A DNA stretch of 64,000 nucleotides from Anaeromyxobacter terrae (GTDB taxonomy: Bacteria > Myxococcota > Myxococcia > Myxococcales > Anaeromyxobacteraceae): the NCBI RefSeq assembly GCF_022690685.1, contig NZ_JALCYY010000024.1, positions 9,853 to 73,852 on the forward strand, in the 5' to 3' direction. Positions 53,189-64,000 of the stretch are shown here, piece by piece. Position 1 is the stretch's first letter, and every line of letters begins with the position of its first letter. The position numbers and the translations under genes are program-made. Under the pieces are notes generated by a model that made no database searches, was not told the DNA's origin, and saw nothing but the letters and a program-made list of their open reading frames with translations.

Positions 53189-54463
53189 ATGACGAACCCC
53201 GCTGGCGAGCTCCTCCTCCTGGTCCCCACCACGAGCTACCGGCTCGACGACTTCCAGGCCGCCGCGCGGCGGCTCGGGGTGCCGCTCGTGGTCGGGAGCG
53301 ACCTGTGCCACCGGATCGAGGTCGCCTTCGGCGCCCGGCCGGACCTCCTCCCGCTCGACTACCGCCGGCCGGAGCGGGCCGCCGAGCAGATCGTGGAGGC
53401 GGCGGCGCAGCGGCCGATCCGCGGGATCGTCCCGGCGAGCGATCCCACCGCCGTCATCGCCGCGCTCGCGGCGGAGCGGCTGGGGCTGCCCCACAACCCG
53501 CCGGCGGCGGCGAGGCGGGCGGCGAACAAGCACGCCATGCGAGCGGCGCTCCGGGCGGCGGGCGTGCCCGTGCCGGACTTCGCGCTGCACGACCTCGACG
53601 GCGACGCCGAGGCGGCGGCGCGGGCGAGCCCGTATCCGTGCGTCCTGAAGCCGCTCATCTTCTCGGCGAGCCGCGGCGTCATCCGCGCGGACGATCCGGC
53701 GGGGTTCGTCGCCGCCTGGAGGCGCATCGCGCGGCTCCTGCGGGAGACGAAGGCGGAGCGGCGTCCGCGCGGCGAGGAGGAGGGGCACGAGGTGCTCGTC
53801 GAGGCGTTCGTGCCCGGCGCGGAGGTCGCGCTCGAGGGGCTCCTGCGCGGCGGCACGCTGGAGGTGCTCGCGCTCTTCGACAAGCCGGATCCGCTCGACG
53901 GCCCGTACTTCGAGGAGACGCTCTACGTCACGCCCTCGCGCCACCCGGCGGCGCTCCAGCGCGAGGTCGAGCGCGTGGTGGCGGAGGGCGCGAGGGCGCT
54001 CGGGCTGCGCGAGGGGCCGGTCCACGCGGAGCTCAGGCTCTCTCCGGCCGGCCCGGTGGTCCTCGAGATCGCGGCGCGCTCGATCGGCGGGCTCTGCTCG
54101 CGCACGCTCCGCTTCGGCGCGGGGCTCACGCTCGAGGAGGTGCTCGTCGCGCACGCGATGGGGATGCCGCTCGAGTCGCTCCGGCGCGAGCAGCGCGCGT
54201 CGGGGGTCATGATGATCCCCATCCCGCGGCGGGGGATCCTCCACGGAGTGCGCGGCGTCGAGGCCGCGCGGGCGGTGCCGGGCGTCGTCGACCTCGTGGT
54301 GACGGCCGAGGTGGGCCGCGAGGTGCTGCCGCTGCCGGAGGGCGAGGCGTACCTCGGGTTCCTCTTCGCCAAGGCGGAGTCGCCGGCGGAGGTGGAGACC
54401 GCGCTGCGCGAGGCGCACCGGCGGCTGGAGCTCGACATCCGCGCGCCGCTGCCGACCGTCTGA
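53189..54463 (+). CDS. ATP-grasp ligase (L-amino-acid ligase-like)
   Basis: This 424-residue ATP-grasp protein has a nucleotide-binding start (LLLVPTTSYRLDDF), NKHAMRAALRAAGVPVPDF, the ATP-grasp segment YPCVLKPLIFSASRGV and a C-terminal EIAARSIGGLCS region, typical of dipeptide-forming L-amino-acid ligases and carnosine-synthase-like enzymes. It probably joins two small carboxylates or amino acids; no substrate can be assigned. The ATG start is at 53189. Confidence 0.8.
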   Translation: MTNPAGELLLLVPTTSYRLDDFQAAARRLGVPLVVGSDLCHRIEVAFGARPDLLPLDYRRPERAAEQIVEAAAQRPIRGIVPASDPTAVIAALAAERLGLPHNPPAAARRAANKHAMRAALRAAGVPVPDFALHDLDGDAEAAARASPYPCVLKPLIFSASRGVIRADDPAGFVAAWRRIARLLRETKAERRPRGEEEGHEVLVEAFVPGAEVALEGLLRGGTLEVLALFDKPDPLDGPYFEETLYVTPSRHPAALQREVERVVAEGARALGLREGPVHAELRLSPAGPVVLEIAARSIGGLCSRTLRFGAGLTLEEVLVAHAMGMPLESLRREQRASGVMMIPIPRRGILHGVRGVEAARAVPGVVDLVVTAEVGREVLPLPEGEAYLGFLFAKAESPAEVETALREAHRRLELDIRAPLPTV

Positions 54464-54542: not shown

Positions 54543-55121
54543 GTGGAACCCGGGGGACCGCTCGAGGAGAGGACGCGCGCGCTCCTCGCCGCCGGCGACG
54601 AGCGCGGGGCCGCCACGGTGGTCCTGCGCGAGCTGGGGCCGCACGTCCTCAGGTACCTGCGCTCGGTGCTGCGGAGCGAGTCGGACGCGGCCGAGGCGTT
54701 CTCCGCCTTCGCGGAGGACCTCTGGCGCGGGCTCCCCGCCTTCCGCTGGGAGGCCCCCCTGCGCAGCTGGGCGTTCCGCGTCGCCTGGCGCGCCGCCCTC
54801 GGCATCCGGAACGACACCTTCCGCCGGCACGGCCGGAGGCTCGAGACCGGCGAGGCCGCCGCCCTCGCCGACGAGCTCCACACGACGGCGCCGCGCCTCG
54901 AGGGGCAGCGCCAGTCGCTCGACGCGCTGCGCGACGCGCTCTCGCCGGAGGAGCAGTCGCTCCTCGTGCTCCGGGTGGACCAGCAGCTCCCGTGGGAGGA
55001 GGTGTCGCTCATCCAGGCGGGCGCCGCGGATCCGAGGACGGTCGCGACGCTGCGCAAGAAGTTCGAGCGCCTCAAGGACCGGCTTGGGCGGCTCGCGCGG
55101 GCGCGCGGCCTCATCGACTGA
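54543..55121 (+). CDS. ECF-like RNA polymerase sigma factor
   Basis: This 192-residue protein has a region 2-like part (VLRYLRSVLRSESDAAEAFSAF, FRWEAPLRSWAFRVAWRAAL) and a region 4-like HTH (LSPEEQSLLVLRVDQQLPWEEVS). The spacing fits an ECF sigma factor. There is no anti-sigma gene beside it. The GTG start is at 54543. It converges on the lutC gene with only 15 bp between the two stops. Confidence 0.7.
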   Translation: MEPGGPLEERTRALLAAGDERGAATVVLRELGPHVLRYLRSVLRSESDAAEAFSAFAEDLWRGLPAFRWEAPLRSWAFRVAWRAALGIRNDTFRRHGRRLETGEAAALADELHTTAPRLEGQRQSLDALRDALSPEEQSLLVLRVDQQLPWEEVSLIQAGAADPRTVATLRKKFERLKDRLGRLARARGLID

Positions 55122-55136: not shown

Positions 55137-55727
55137 TCACCCGACGAGGAACACGGCGCACGACCGGGCGCCGTGCGCGCCGATGACGAGCGCCTGCTCG
55201 ATGTCGGCGGTCTTCGACGGGCCGGCGATGAAGAGGCCGTAGCCGCGCGGCAGCGCCGCCACCCGCGCGCAGGCCTCGTGCATGTCGTTCACGAGCTCGC
55301 CGGCCGGCAGGACGAGCGCGAGGTGCTGCGTGACGACGAACACGGCGCGGTCGTGGAGCGACGCCCCGGCCACCCACACCGCGCCGTTCTCGGCCACGCC
55401 GAAGACGCCCGGCAGCACGGCGAGGTCGACGCCCTCGAGCTCGTGCGGATCGCGGAGCGCCTCGAGCGCCACGTTCCCCGGGCCGGCGTCCGGCACGGCG
55501 GAGGCGATCCGCTTCGCGCCGAGCCGCGCCGCGAGCGCCGCCACCCCGTCCGCGAGCGCCGGGCCGTCCGCGACGCGCACCGCGGTCCCGGCCACGGCAG
55601 CGACCGCGGTCTCGAACTGCGCCACGCGATCCGCGTAGGGCGCGGCGAGACCGCGCGTCTCGGGGAGCGCCTCCGGCGGCGGTGCCGCGGCCCGAAGGCG
55701 CCGCAGGATCTCGTCCCGGCTAGACAC
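55137..55727 (-). CDS. lutC: L-lactate utilisation protein C (LUD domain)
   Basis: This 196-residue LUD-domain protein is the third subunit of the LutABC (LldEFG) L-lactate dehydrogenase complex. It has the RDEILRRL start, an NGAVWVAG segment and the family's HDRAVFVVTQHLALVL region. The GTG start at 55727 overlaps the lutB stop by 8 nt. It is the last gene of the lactate operon. Confidence 0.9.
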   Translation of the reverse strand: MSSRDEILRRLRAAAPPPEALPETRGLAAPYADRVAQFETAVAAVAGTAVRVADGPALADGVAALAARLGAKRIASAVPDAGPGNVALEALRDPHELEGVDLAVLPGVFGVAENGAVWVAGASLHDRAVFVVTQHLALVLPAGELVNDMHEACARVAALPRGYGLFIAGPSKTADIEQALVIGAHGARSCAVFLVG

Positions 55728-57126
55728 GCGGCCTCCGCTCCTTCCGGTAGAGCTGCCGGAAGGTCTCCCTCGGCATGGGCGGCAGCTCGCGCTGGCGCCC
55801 CCACGGGTTCCAGCGCGCGTAGAGGACGCCGCGCGGCAGGTTACGCCCGAGGAAGCGCGCCGTCGCGCCGGCGGCGAGGTAGAGGAGCTTCACGCGCAGC
55901 ACGAGCGCGGCGAGCCGCATGCCCAGGCGCTTCGACATGGGCTGCAGGCCGCGCTCCGCGAGGTCGCGGCGACCGGTCAGGATCTCCTCGTGGAGCGGGA
56001 TCTTCACCGGGCAGACGTCGTCGCACGAGCCGCACAGGCTCGAGGCGAAAGGCAGCGACGCGTGGCCGTCGACGCCGCGCGCGGTCGCGAGGACGATCCC
56101 GATGGGCCCCGGGATCGTGTACGTGTAGCTGTAGCCGCCGCTCCGCCGGTACACCGGGCAGGTGTTCATGCACGCCGCGCAGCGGATGCAGTGGAGGGCG
56201 CGGCGGTACTGCTCCCTGGCGAGGAGCGCGCTGCGCCCGTTGTCGACGACCACGATGTGCAGCTCGCCGCCGCGCATCGGGCCGAGGAAGTGGGTCGTGT
56301 AGCTCGTGCACGGCTGGCCGGTGGCGGACCGCGCGAGGAGCCGCAGGAACACGGCCAGGTCCTCGAGCCGGGGGATGATCTTCTCGACGCCCATGCACGC
56401 GACGTGGATGGGCGGGAGCGAGGTGCCCATGTCCGCGTTGCCCTCGTTCGTGCAGACGACGAACCCGCCGGTCTCCGCGACCGCGAAGTTCACGCCGGTG
56501 AGCCCCGCCTGCGCCGCCATGAACCGCTCGCGCAGGTGCGCGCGCGCGGCCTCGGTGAGCCGGGTCGGATCGGAGAGCCCCTCGGGCGTGCCGAGCTTCT
56601 CGTGGAAGAGGTCGCCGATCTCCTCCTTCTTCTTGTGGATCGCCGGCATCACGATGTGCGACGGCGGCTCCTTCGCGAGCTGCACGATGCGCTCGCCGAG
56701 ATCCGTGTCCGTCACCTCGATCCCGCGCGCCTCGAGGTACGGGTTCAGGTGGCACTCCTCGGTGAGCATCGACTTCGACTTCACGAGCCGGGTCACCCCG
56801 CGCTCGGAGAGGATGCGGTGGACGATCGCGTTGTGCTCGTCGGCGTCGCGCGCCCAGTGCACGGTCGCGCCCGCCGCCGTGGCCTTCCGCTCGAACTCCT
56901 CCAGGTAGTCGGCGAGCCGCGCCTGGGTGTGCGCCTTGATCCGCGAGGCCACCTCGCGGAGCCGCTCCCACTCCGGCACGGCCGAGGCGGCGCGATCGCG
57001 CTTCGCCCGCACGAACCAGACCGCCTGGTCGTGCCAGTGGGCGTGCGGCTCGTCCCGCAGGAACGCGGCCGCGCGGTCCGCGTGGCCGCGCCCGTCGGAG
57101 CGGAGCACCGGGAGCGAGTCGCTCAT
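55720..57126 (-). CDS. lutB: L-lactate utilisation iron-sulfur protein B
   Basis: This 468-residue protein combines an N-terminal LUD domain with C-terminal [4Fe-4S] sites. The cluster motifs are CIRCAACMNTCP (about residue 315) and CGSCDDVCPVK (about residue 365). It is the electron-transfer subunit of the LutABC L-lactate oxidation complex at the membrane. The ATG start at 57126 overlaps the lutA stop (ATGA). It is homologous to LldF. Confidence 0.95.
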   Translation of the reverse strand: MSDSLPVLRSDGRGHADRAAAFLRDEPHAHWHDQAVWFVRAKRDRAASAVPEWERLREVASRIKAHTQARLADYLEEFERKATAAGATVHWARDADEHNAIVHRILSERGVTRLVKSKSMLTEECHLNPYLEARGIEVTDTDLGERIVQLAKEPPSHIVMPAIHKKKEEIGDLFHEKLGTPEGLSDPTRLTEAARAHLRERFMAAQAGLTGVNFAVAETGGFVVCTNEGNADMGTSLPPIHVACMGVEKIIPRLEDLAVFLRLLARSATGQPCTSYTTHFLGPMRGGELHIVVVDNGRSALLAREQYRRALHCIRCAACMNTCPVYRRSGGYSYTYTIPGPIGIVLATARGVDGHASLPFASSLCGSCDDVCPVKIPLHEEILTGRRDLAERGLQPMSKRLGMRLAALVLRVKLLYLAAGATARFLGRNLPRGVLYARWNPWGRQRELPPMPRETFRQLYRKERRPRV

Positions 57127-57866
57127 GGCATCGCCTCCGCGAGGACCTCGGCGACGTGCCGGAACGCGAGCGGCGCCTTCGCCCGCCGGGCGAGCCCGTC
57201 CATGTGCATCAGGCAGGACACGTCCGTGCCGGTGACGATCTCCGCGCCCGCCTTCACGTGATCGGCGAGCCGGTCGCGCCCCATCATGCAGGAGACCGCC
57301 TCCTCGACGACCGCGAAGGTGCCGCCGAACCCGCAGCACTCGTCGACGCGCGCGAGCGGCACGAGCTCGATGCCCTCGAGCGAGGAGAGGAGGCTCGCGA
57401 CCTTGCTGTAGGGCGCCTCCAGCCGCTCGCTCGAGCTGCCCAGCCGGAGCTCGCGCAGCCCGTGGCAGCTCTGGTGCAGCCCGACCTTGCGCGGGAAGCG
57501 GCCCGCGATGCGCCCGATCTTCAGCACGTCGGTGATGAACTCGCAGAGCTCGTAGGTCGCGCGCTTCACGGCCTCGAGCCCGGGCGCGCCGGGGATGAGC
57601 GCGTCGTAGTGGTTCCGCACCATCGAGGCGCAGCTCCCGGACGGGCAGACGACGTGCTCGAACCCGCCGAACACCTCGAGGAACCGGCGCGCGAGCGGCG
57701 CCGCGTCGGAGGCGAACCCGGCGTTCGCCATGGGCTGGCCGCAGCAGGTCTGGTCCTCGGGGTAGACCACGTCCACCCCGAGCTTCTCGAGCACGCGCAC
57801 GGTGGCGAGCCCGACCTGCGGGTAGAGCTGGTCGACGTAGCAGGGGATGAAGAGGGCGACCTTCAC
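57123..57866 (-). CDS. lutA: L-lactate utilisation protein A (CCG-domain)
   Basis: This 247-residue protein has two CCG-type cysteine-rich domains (TCCGQPMANAG and DECCGFGGTF, each following a CxxxC-like upstream Cys), like LldE/LutA. It is part of the LutABC complex that oxidises L-lactate to pyruvate. The ATG start at 57866 lies 50 nt after the permease stop. Confidence 0.95.
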   Translation of the reverse strand: MKVALFIPCYVDQLYPQVGLATVRVLEKLGVDVVYPEDQTCCGQPMANAGFASDAAPLARRFLEVFGGFEHVVCPSGSCASMVRNHYDALIPGAPGLEAVKRATYELCEFITDVLKIGRIAGRFPRKVGLHQSCHGLRELRLGSSSERLEAPYSKVASLLSSLEGIELVPLARVDECCGFGGTFAVVEEAVSCMMGRDRLADHVKAGAEIVTGTDVSCLMHMDGLARRAKAPLAFRHVAEVLAEAMP

Positions 57867-57916
57867 GTGGCCTCGGGCGGAGGGGCGGCGGGCGCCGCCC
57901 CTCGCGCGTCAGGGGT

Positions 57917-59746
57917 TCACTTCGGCGGCGGCACGGGGATGACGCCAGGGAAGACGTACGCCTGCAGCATGGCGATGATCCCGATGAAGGCGGCGAGCGC
58001 GATCGAGTGCCACCAGACGGTGCGGAAGATCGGGCCGAGCGCGTGCGTCCGTTCCTTCGGGCTCTCGTAGCAGGCGGCGCACGCGACCATGATCGACTGC
58101 GCGTCGATCATCTTGCCCATCACGCCGCCCGTCGAGTTCGTCGCCACGATGAGGATCTCGTTCAGCTTGAGCTGCTGGGCGGTGATCCGCTGGAGGCTCC
58201 CGAAGAGCGCGTTCGAGGCGGTGTCGGAGCCGGTGAGGAAGACGCCGAGCCAGCCGAGGTAGGCGGCGAAGAACGGGTACATGAAGCCGGCCTTCGTGAA
58301 GGCGAGCCCGAGGACGGCGTCGGTGCCCGAGTAGCGCGTGAGGTAGCCGAGCCCGAGCACCTGGCCGATGACGAGGACCGGGATCTTCATGCGGTGGATC
58401 GTCCGGCTCGTCGCCTCCTTCCACTGGGCGGCGGTCATGCGGAGCGCGAGCCCGGAGAGGAGGGCGGCGACGAACACGCCCGTCCCGGCGGCGGAGAGCC
58501 AGTTGATCGTGAACCGCGCCGCCTCGGGCTTCGCGTTCGGCAGGGCGACGGGCGGCATGCGCTGCACGAGGTTGTGGAGCGAGGGCATGTCCCAGCCCGG
58601 GAGCGACAGCGTGCCGCTGAACTTCGAGCCGAGGAGCGTCGTCGAGAACTTCGCGTCCGAGAAGAGGTTGTTGAGGAACGCCTTGAACGATGGCATGCCC
58701 CAGAGCGCGCACGCGGCGATGAGGATCGCCCAGGGCAGCCACGCGTAGACGGTCTGGCGGACCGTGTAGGGGTACTCCCACGAGCGATCCGTCGAGTCGC
58801 GGCCCGCCGCCCCGACGCTGGCCGCCGCCGCGCGCTCACGCGCGGCGCGCTCGGAGCGCAGCAGGAACCGCGTCTTCGGGTGCCACACGAAGCGGAGGAA
58901 GAGCGCGGTGCACACGACCGAGAAGACGCCCGAGACGACGTCGGTCATGAGGTGGAAGGAGTTCGTGCCGGAGGCGAAGTACTGCATGATCGCGAACGAG
59001 GCGCCCGAGACGAGCGTCGCCGGCCACACCTCGAAGGCCTCCTTCCACGTGCCGCCCTCCATCTTGACGAAGGTGACGACGAGCCAGAAGGGGACGAGGA
59101 GCGACGCGAAGGGGAGCTGGTGGCCCGCCATCGCGGAGAGCGTGACCTGGTCGAGGCCGCTCACCGCCGCGAGCGTCACGATCGGAGTGCCGATCGCGCC
59201 CCACGCCACGGGGGCGGTGTTCGCGAGCAGGTTCAGCACCGCGGACTGGAACGGCGAGAAGCCGAGGCCGACCATGACGGCGCCCGCGATCGCGACCGGG
59301 GTGCCGAAGCCAGAGGTGCCCTCGATGATCGCGCCGAACGAGAAGGCGATGAGGAGCACCTGGAGGCGGCGGTCGAACGAGATGTGGATGATCGACTCCT
59401 TCACGATCTCGAACTTCCCGGTGATCACCGTCATCGTGTAGAGGAACATCGCCGCGAGCACGATCCAGATGATCCCGAGGAAGCCCGAGAGCGACCCGTA
59501 CGCGAACGCGGAGACCGCCGACGCGACCGGCATGCCGAACGGGATGCAGGAGACGAGGAACGCGGCGATGACGCCGTACAGCGCGGCGTACGGCGCCGAG
59601 ATGCCGAGGTGGCGCCGTCCGAGCTCGTCGCGGTGGGGGTGGAGCGCGATGAAGTACAGCAGGGTGAGGATCGGGATCGCCGCCACGAGCGTGGAGAGGA
59701 AGGCGTTCCCCAGCGGATTGTAGTTCTGGTGGTACATGCGGTTCAC
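57917..59746 (-). CDS. lldP: L-lactate permease (LctP family)
   Basis: This 609-residue membrane protein has about 12-14 helices and the LctP motifs EGTSGFGTPVAIAGA and KFEIVKESIIHIS. It should bring lactate (and possibly glycolate) into the cell with protons. The GTG start at 59746 overlaps the small gene's TGA; an ATG at 59737 (MYHQNYNPLGN) is an alternative. It lies inside the lactate operon. Confidence 0.93.
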   Translation of the reverse strand: MNRMYHQNYNPLGNAFLSTLVAAIPILTLLYFIALHPHRDELGRRHLGISAPYAALYGVIAAFLVSCIPFGMPVASAVSAFAYGSLSGFLGIIWIVLAAMFLYTMTVITGKFEIVKESIIHISFDRRLQVLLIAFSFGAIIEGTSGFGTPVAIAGAVMVGLGFSPFQSAVLNLLANTAPVAWGAIGTPIVTLAAVSGLDQVTLSAMAGHQLPFASLLVPFWLVVTFVKMEGGTWKEAFEVWPATLVSGASFAIMQYFASGTNSFHLMTDVVSGVFSVVCTALFLRFVWHPKTRFLLRSERAARERAAAASVGAAGRDSTDRSWEYPYTVRQTVYAWLPWAILIAACALWGMPSFKAFLNNLFSDAKFSTTLLGSKFSGTLSLPGWDMPSLHNLVQRMPPVALPNAKPEAARFTINWLSAAGTGVFVAALLSGLALRMTAAQWKEATSRTIHRMKIPVLVIGQVLGLGYLTRYSGTDAVLGLAFTKAGFMYPFFAAYLGWLGVFLTGSDTASNALFGSLQRITAQQLKLNEILIVATNSTGGVMGKMIDAQSIMVACAACYESPKERTHALGPIFRTVWWHSIALAAFIGIIAMLQAYVFPGVIPVPPPK

Positions 59747-59852
59747 TCCCGCGCGATGACTGCCTGGGTGGTGCAGACGGGGGCTTCGAGCAGCTCCGGG
59801 ACGATCGGGACGGCCGCCGCGAGGCCGGCGGGCGGCGTGGGGGGAGGCGAGC

Positions 59853-59856
<4 letters not shown>
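59743..59856 (-). CDS. 37-residue coupled small protein in lactate operon
   Basis: This short frame lies between dld-II and lldP. Its ATG overlaps the dld-II stop (ATGA) and its TGA overlaps the lldP GTG, so it is coupled on both sides. The product is 37 residues with a Pro-rich start (SSPPPTPPAG), a hydrophobic middle and one Cys (PVCTTQ). It could be a real small protein or only a re-initiation bridge. No family is recognised. Confidence 0.45.
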
Positions 59857-62861
<3,005 letters not shown>

Positions 62862-62875
62862 GAGTCTCGAGACTC
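62862..62875 (-). promoter_or_regulatory. Perfect 14-bp palindrome at the dld-II start
   Basis: GAGTCTCGAGACTC ends at the base before the dld-II start codon, so it covers the ribosome-binding site. It could be a repressor operator or a translational-control hairpin for the lactate operon. Confidence 0.5.
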
Positions 62876-62876
62876 C

Positions 62877-62922
62877 AGCACCTCCGGTCGGCCCCTCGCG
62901 CGAGAAGTGGGCGACCGGTGCT
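62877..62922 (-). promoter_or_regulatory. Nested imperfect inverted repeat in lactate operon leader
   Basis: AGCACC-tcc-GGTCG-g-CCC pairs with GGGCGACCGGTGCT across a loop that itself contains CTCGCGCGAG. It lies 15-60 nt upstream of dld-II. It is likely an operator or leader structure, though no regulator can be named. Confidence 0.4.
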
Positions 62923-63101
62923 ACTCGTCGCGCGTCCGGTCGGGCGCACGGAGTGAACGGTATGGCAGGGAACGGCGACGCCGCGCGCGGTCCGGACGGG
63001 GCCGCATGCGCGCCGCGTCGCGTCACGCGGGCGTCGCCGGGTCGCAGGCGCGAGAGCCCGGAAAGGGGCTCCGCCCCAGGCGGGCGGGCGAGCGCGCAGG
63101 G

Positions 63102-64000
63102 TCACTCGAGCGGGGCCAACTGCCCCGCGGTCGGCTCTGCTCAACAGAACCAGGACTCGGTGAGGCGCGGGACGCGGCGCTGGTCGGGGGCGAGCACGCG
63201 GACGTGGCCGTGGGGCAGGCCCGCCGCGGCGAGCGCGAGCGCCTTCACCCGCGCGACCGTCTCGAGCGGCGGCTCGCCCGACGCGGCCCCCGCCTCCACC
63301 TCCGTCGCGACCCGCGCCTGCAGCCCGTCCATGCGCGGGTCGGGGTGGCGCCAGCGCCAGGTGAGCGCCGCCGCGTCGAGCCCGTCGAAGGGCATCGTGG
63401 GATCCCCCTCGAGCAGGGAGCCCGGCGGGACGAGCAGCCGGATCGAGAGCTGGACGGGATCGAGGTTCGACAGCCAGCCGCGCGCCTCGAGCAGCTCGAG
63501 GAGCTCCAGGTAGTCGTCGAGCGTCGCCCAGGGAGTGAACGGGAGGAGCGAGGGGCGCAGCGGGACGCCGGCCGCGGCGGCGAGATCGAACGCGGCGAGC
63601 GCGTCGGCGCGGGTGTGGCCCTTCGCGAGCCGCGCGAGGACCTCGTCGGAGAAGGACTCGACGGCGGAGGTCAGGAAGAGCGCGCCGAGCCCGGCGAGCT
63701 CGCGGAGCGCCTCCGGGGCGGCGAGGAGGTGCTCGACCTTCGCGGTGAAGTCGAAGGTGAGGGCCGGGAAGCGGGCGTGGACCGCGCGCGCGACGCGGAG
63801 CGCGTGCGCGGGCCCGTTCAGGAAGTCGGGGTCGCCGAAGGTGACGTGCTGCACGCCCTGTGCGACCTGGCGAGCGACGTCCTCGACGACCGTCTCCCGC
63901 GGGACCGCGAAGAACCGCCCGTCGTAGACCGCCGGGAGCGGGCAGTGCCGGCAGCGGTGCTTGCAGCCGCGGCTCGCCTCCGCGTAGCCGGCGAGCCGGA
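63102..64000 (-). CDS. Radical SAM protein with CUAEP (Sec) tail, partial, putative selenoprotein
   Basis: The 5' end lies beyond the window. The visible part has the radical SAM cluster motif C-x3-C-x2-C (SRGCKHRCRHCPLP) close to the edge, followed by DGRFF and HVTFGDPDFLNGP. An ordinary reading ends at TGA 63141-63143 after LTESWFC. Reading through the TGA adds AEPTAGQLAPLE and stops at 63102-63104. The result Cys-Sec-Ala-Glu-Pro matches the CUAEP/CCAEP-tail radical SAM family that I know from annotation of other genomes. A hairpin follows the TGA at SECIS-like distance. Its substrate and partner are unknown. SelA-D genes are not in the window. Confidence 0.8.
63110..63128 (-). promoter_or_regulatory. 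Candidate bacterial SECIS hairpin
   Basis: On the coding (minus) strand, GCGGGGC and GCCCCGC form a 7-bp stem around the 5-nt loop AGTTG, beginning 12 nt after the in-frame TGA. Bacterial SECIS elements lie directly after the UGA with a G-U-containing apical loop about this far downstream. It would direct selenocysteine insertion by SelB. Confidence 0.6.

Follow-up and report, generated by a model that had tools for sequence, protein, structure and literature searches.

The radical SAM reading frame at the end of the analyzed stretch of Anaeromyxobacter terrae DNA (64,000 nucleotides, hereafter the window) runs into a TGA directly after a cysteine codon. Does this TGA end the protein or does it specify selenocysteine (Sec), and what might the enzyme do? 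The original prediction was of a hidden selenoprotein with a Cys-Sec-Ala-Glu-Pro (CUAEP) tail, decoded with the help of a downstream hairpin.

A 470-residue member of a named radical SAM family

The gene lies on the minus strand; its 3′ part occupies 63102–64000, and the window end cuts it. Completing the frame from contig C60 recovered the whole gene, with a TTG as the first start codon (L009:7367, ~0.5 kb past the window end). The frame before the in-frame TGA reads ...RLTESWFC, and translation with TGA as Sec gives a protein of 470 amino acids with the tail ESWFC-U-AEPTAGQLAPLE. Base by base, this is the predicted arrangement: a TGA directly after ESWFC, followed by A-E-P and nine further residues (TAGQLAPLE) before a second stop. 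The radical SAM motif CKHRCRHC that had been read in the same frame is also present, within a Pfam Radical_SAM domain (E = 7.7e-17). The features of the gene are as follows.

L009:5955–7367 (L009 position + 57147 = window position), minus strand: whole CUAEP gene, from 63102 to ~0.5 kb past the window end
63942–63965, minus strand: CX3CX2C motif CKHRCRHC (C184, C188 and C191), which binds the [4Fe-4S] cluster of radical SAM enzymes; Cys invariant in 30- and 48-sequence alignments
63141–63143, minus strand: in-frame TGA, residue 458, almost certainly read as Sec; only TGA, TGC or TGT at this site in homologs
63105–63140, minus strand: tail codons beyond the TGA, AEPTAGQLAPLE; Glu and Pro invariant, third-position variation predominates
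63110–63128, minus strand: bacterial SECIS hairpin, supported by covariation; stem 63128–63122 with 63116–63110, loop AGUUG at 63121–63117
63102–63104, minus strand: true stop TGA; homologs terminate at varied stops a few codons past the tail

The 470-residue protein matched the NCBIfam model NF040546, 'CUAEP/CCAEP-tail radical SAM (seleno)protein', over profile positions 1–467 of 468 with 653 bits (cut-off 500), which bears out the family assignment made from the tail. It agrees with NF040546 in the full-length equivalog match, in the tail and in the alternation of Sec and Cys, and differs from it in nothing essential. Since NCBI already names this family, the gene is a further member and not a new kind of selenoprotein. 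The word 'hidden' is thus apt for a standard gene caller, which ends the protein at the Cys as predicted, but not for NCBI, whose family model already names the CUAEP protein. RefSeq makes the same cut in Thermomicrobium roseum, where the coding sequence WP_012643191.1 (plasmid NC_011961, L136:6953–8389) ends in WFC at an in-frame TGA with AEP beyond, so that the enzyme loses its most telling residues.

The name of NF040546 gives no function. The selenoprotein table of a 2026 review (PMC13188914) covers 119 families and lists neither this one nor its accession, and radical SAM proteins go unmentioned in the main text of the deep-Sep paper. No open paper naming CUAEP turned up in a literature search; a published mention in the Haft selenoprotein papers is possible. 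TIGR04167 (rSAM_SeCys) and TrsS (NF045646) are likewise radical SAM proteins with Sec (PMC13188914), but neither matched the CUAEP protein at E = 0.001, and the Sec motif listed for TIGR04167 (GxxU) differs.

In the predicted structure (pLDDT 92.9, pTM 0.91), a Rossmann domain is followed by a radical SAM barrel; confidence is moderate in the Cys-Sec region, and pLDDT falls below 50 over the last nine residues. The best structural matches were AprD4 (6fd2, the top match), OxsB, MgmA and TsrM, with CysS also among the cobalamin-enzyme matches. AprD4, OxsB, TsrM and MgmA are alike in combining a Rossmann domain with a radical SAM barrel (366–422 aligned residues, Z = 24–27), but they are only 16–20% identical to the CUAEP protein, and their chemistries differ among themselves.

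Evidence for selenocysteine insertion at the in-frame TGA

The original prediction stood or fell with a Sec machinery in the host, and all four components were found in the A. terrae genome: a tRNA-Sec with anticodon tca (UCA; 75 bits), SelA (532 bits), SelB and SelD. The SelD gene (G000:C101:3623–4552, L019) carries an in-frame TGA of its own and so probably encodes a second selenoprotein.

Next, we compared the site across homologs, which come from about a dozen phyla. Thirty orthologs from 195 genomes of the phylum scored above the NF040546 cut-off, and their codon at this site is TGA in 29 and TGC in one (L047). Of the best 80 of 571 confirmed relatives in a species-genome collection, a set that shares a few species with the phylum set, 79 are complete at the site: 54 have TGA, 25 have TGC or TGT, and nothing else occurs. 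The AEP tail is conserved and no homolog ends at the Cys, in line with the alignment outcome that the original prediction had named as strong support, namely Cys in place of Sec. Past the TGA, Glu and Pro never vary, and the differences that do occur cluster at third codon positions; the tails of the nearest relatives (compared with Anaeromyxobacter soli) differ by silent changes only. Judged from these aligned codons, the frame beyond the TGA is under protein selection.

The state of the site also tracks the host machinery. selA was found in 27 of 30 TGA-type genomes versus 4 of 20 Cys-type genomes (Fisher p = 7e-7, with genomes taken as independent and many of them metagenome-assembled). The three TGA-type genomes without a SelA above the cut-off are all metagenome-assembled and may be incomplete. 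A quick tree in which ArsL served as the distant group shows five switches between Sec and Cys, at least three of them forced by well-supported branches; the sequence from the window groups with A. soli.

Covariation of the SECIS hairpin

The predicted 7-bp hairpin is present at 63128–63110: a stem of GCGGGGC/GCCCCGC closes an AGUUG loop and begins exactly 12 nt past the TGA. Among 50 TGA members, 92.9% of stem cells are paired, and 76 cells show two-sided compensatory changes versus 22.6 ± 3.5 in shuffled alignments (0 of 500 shuffles as high). These members were picked for a five-base loop in the usual register, which somewhat favors the percentage paired but does not explain the compensatory changes. 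Sliding the partner by one base lowered stem pairing to about 54%. By contrast, 18 Cys members reached 43.7% stem pairing versus 42.6% when shuffled, with no covariation above chance; this restriction to TGA members argues for the SECIS role that had been proposed for the hairpin. With few exceptions, the loop of TGA members reads AG(U/G)U, which resembles the AGGU loop of the Escherichia coli fdhF SECIS. The single-sequence fold is unremarkable (z = −1.5), so it is the comparison of homologs, and not thermodynamics alone, that places the hairpin far above chance. An Rfam search of the hairpin region returned no matching family; its sole hit lay on the opposite strand and below threshold.

Several members depart from this pattern. 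In L037 and L055 the hairpin has shifted to position +28 relative to the TGA, L030 and L100 have their loop at +20, and the stem is short or bulged in L024 and L056. The hairpin that accompanies the TGA of T. roseum is of another form, with no AG-type loop at the usual place. L047, the sole Cys member of the phylum set, has lost the hairpin.

Thermogemmatispora loci (for example, L068:9376–9417) carry a Cys-type gene that retains a fossil-like SECIS hairpin. The L068 genome still has selA, which suggests a recent change from Sec to Cys.

SelB would bind the hairpin, which begins 12 nt past the TGA at 63143–63141, and deliver Sec-tRNA(Sec), and the ribosome would thereby read this codon as Sec. 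Collectively, a functional bacterial selenoprotein gene is the best explanation overall (probability about 0.93). The reading of the TGA as Sec, to give a 470-residue NF040546 enzyme with an N-terminal, cobalamin-binding-like Rossmann domain, a radical SAM barrel and a short WFC-Sec-AEP tail, is close to certain on the sequence comparisons. That the TGA is an ordinary stop, with the protein ending at Cys457 and the AEP frame beyond being chance or a relic, is how a standard caller and RefSeq (for T. roseum) treat such genes, but Cys homologs read through the site into AEPT, the Glu-Pro pair past it is invariant with changes mostly at third codon positions, hairpin covariation is confined to TGA members and selA co-occurs with TGA; we therefore rejected this reading as having a negligible probability.

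An ATP-grasp ligase as predicted partner

We then examined which genes accompany the CUAEP gene. One further feature of the window is relevant here.

53189–54463, plus strand: ATP-grasp L-amino-acid-ligase homolog, predicted functional partner from co-occurrence, Pfam and a PDB match

The product of this gene contains the Pfam domains ATP-grasp_4 and LAL_C2, and its nearest solved structure is that of the L-amino acid ligase BL00235 (PDB 3vot, E = 1.2e-35), which shares the ATP-grasp and LAL_C2 architecture. With an ortholog defined as a match of at least 43% identity across the 195 phylum genomes, the ligase occurs in 33 of 34 CUAEP-positive genomes versus 2 of 161 other Myxococcota genomes, and those two are incomplete (p = 8e-34, a value inflated by relatedness). 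In genus g6 of the same family and in genome G027, both CUAEP and the ligase are missing. Of the best 80 of 571 loci, 39 have the ligase no more than 3 kb from CUAEP, and it occurs at no other place in the flanks. Where no ligase is adjacent, 27 of 36 genomes still carry one elsewhere; the other nine show none at E = 1e-30, and many of these are metagenome-assembled. A pooled Pfam scan of 141 neighboring ORFs revealed no dominant partner beyond those obtained from clustering.

In the window, the two genes are separated by a lactate-utilization block on the minus strand (55137–63026), consisting of a LutCBA-type set (LUD-domain, LutB-like and CCG-domain proteins), a lactate permease and a large FAD-linked oxidase. 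CUAEP and the ligase lie much closer together in several relatives. A small sigma-70 region 2 protein is encoded just downstream of the ligase gene (54543–55121, plus strand).

Relationship to ArsL and possible chemistry

By sequence, the nearest characterized relative of the CUAEP protein is ArsL (NF040542), the second-best family at 261 bits, under its cut-off of 450. The two are about 34% identical in alignment and share CX3CX2C, and ArsL has a vicinal Cys pair in its C-terminal tail. ArsL ends in KRCCLKC (Cys-Cys) and CUAEP in WFCUAEP (Cys-Sec) at a comparable place, with the pair as the sole anchor of the tail alignment; both families thus carry a C-terminal vicinal Cys-Cys or Cys-Sec pair. 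The tails are otherwise distinct, CCLKC in ArsL and C(U/C)AEP here, and the RCCLKC signature of ArsL is missing from the CUAEP protein. In cells, ArsL makes hydroxyarsinothricin from arsenite, and the 3-amino-3-carboxypropyl part of SAM was proposed as the source (PMC8552651).

By analogy to ArsL, the CUAEP enzyme may form a carbon-heteroatom bond, probably using the aminocarboxypropyl part of SAM, with its vicinal Cys-Sec pair holding a soft substrate or reducing it, a part that in ArsL may fall to the Cys-Cys-x-x-Cys tail. We put this proposal at somewhat less than an even chance. The resulting amino acid would probably then be joined to another amino acid or an amine by the ATP-grasp ligase (53189–54463). 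The relationship to ArsL, the partner ligase and the iron and Fe-S neighbors described below lead us to infer a two-step pathway, including its reaction, the role of the tail, its product and any link to iron beyond Fe-S supply. In about a dozen phyla, a Sec-containing radical SAM enzyme with a Cys-Sec tail acting in its active site and a near-obligate ligase might produce an amino acid that is amidated and carries a new carbon-heteroatom bond, in a pathway linked to iron or Fe-S homeostasis; as a whole, this proposal is tentative, and the odds are against its holding in every part. We did not find the ligase partnership or the comparison with ArsL described before. Kinship with ArsL, the vicinal Cys/Sec tail and the near-constant ligase give what was an 'unknown radical SAM selenoprotein' a place in a proposed two-gene pathway amenable to expression and assay.

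Alternative functions

The CUAEP enzyme might instead serve Fe-S cluster or iron homeostasis directly, through maturation or repair; Cys-Sec would then work as a redox pair, and the ligase would be a secondary partner. Among the best 80 of 571 loci, 44 have at least one of YggX, NfuA/NifU-C, SUF or HesB within 3 kb; by gene, YggX was found in 17 (including same-genus relatives), NfuA/NifU-C in 26, SUF in about five and HesB in nine. In the A. terrae genome itself, YggX is the direct upstream neighbor of the CUAEP gene, and the CUAEP gene of Ignavibacteria and relatives is part of a SUF operon. However, any radical SAM enzyme depends on Fe-S clusters, and co-expression with such genes could reflect no more than their supply. 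Moreover, the ATP-grasp partner is the more constant companion within Myxococcota, and the kinship with ArsL points toward small-molecule synthesis. We consider a direct Fe-S role less likely than not, albeit a serious contender.

In the SUF arrangement of Ignavibacteria and others (L073:3261–12339, L105, L117, L069 and L119), CUAEP lies inside the Fe-S assembly operon, followed by NfuA and, where the contig allows, by the ligase.

A second alternative is a radical SAM methyltransferase that depends on cobalamin and has a small molecule or a peptide as its substrate. The N-terminal Rossmann domain and the structural matches to TsrM, OxsB, CysS and MgmA are consistent with such an enzyme, and the Rossmann fold matches cobalamin enzymes structurally even though the Pfam B12-binding domain scored only 19.7 bits, below its cut-off of 32.1. 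Besides this low score, AprD4, which heads the structural matches, is a dehydratase, and no methyltransferase family comes nearly as close in sequence as ArsL does. We regard a methyltransferase as distinctly improbable.

Lastly, the CUAEP enzyme could itself be an organoarsenical synthase in the full sense, in effect an ArsL with Sec, and transfer the aminocarboxypropyl group onto arsenic. ArsL is the nearest named family, its activity was shown in cells (PMC8552651), its KRCCLKC tail places a vicinal Cys pair at a comparable position, and an ArsL-type locus of Priestia (RCCLKC tail) also has an ATP-grasp gene, albeit one only 22% identical. Nevertheless, the score of 261 bits is below the ArsL cut-off, and, whereas the ArsL gene sits among arsenic genes, CUAEP genes do not. 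BLAST found no homolog of ArsR, ArsM, ArsQ, ArsC, ArsH or ArsN1 in 1.05 Mb around 80 CUAEP genes (the best 80 of 571), and ArsB-like genes occurred, among these 80 loci and the window, only in four Thermogemmatispora loci, about 3 kb from CUAEP. The neighbors are iron and Fe-S genes instead. This near absence of arsenic genes leaves an arsenic pathway unsupported by gene context and indicates that the analogy to ArsL may not extend to arsenic; we consider a synthase of organoarsenicals very unlikely.

A DUF169 gene occurs near CUAEP in 17 of the best 80 of 571 loci. It adjoins CUAEP in L084, L103, L131 and other Planctomycetota loci, and since these genomes show no ligase at E = 1e-30, DUF169 may mark a variant of the proposed CUAEP-ligase pathway in Planctomycetota.
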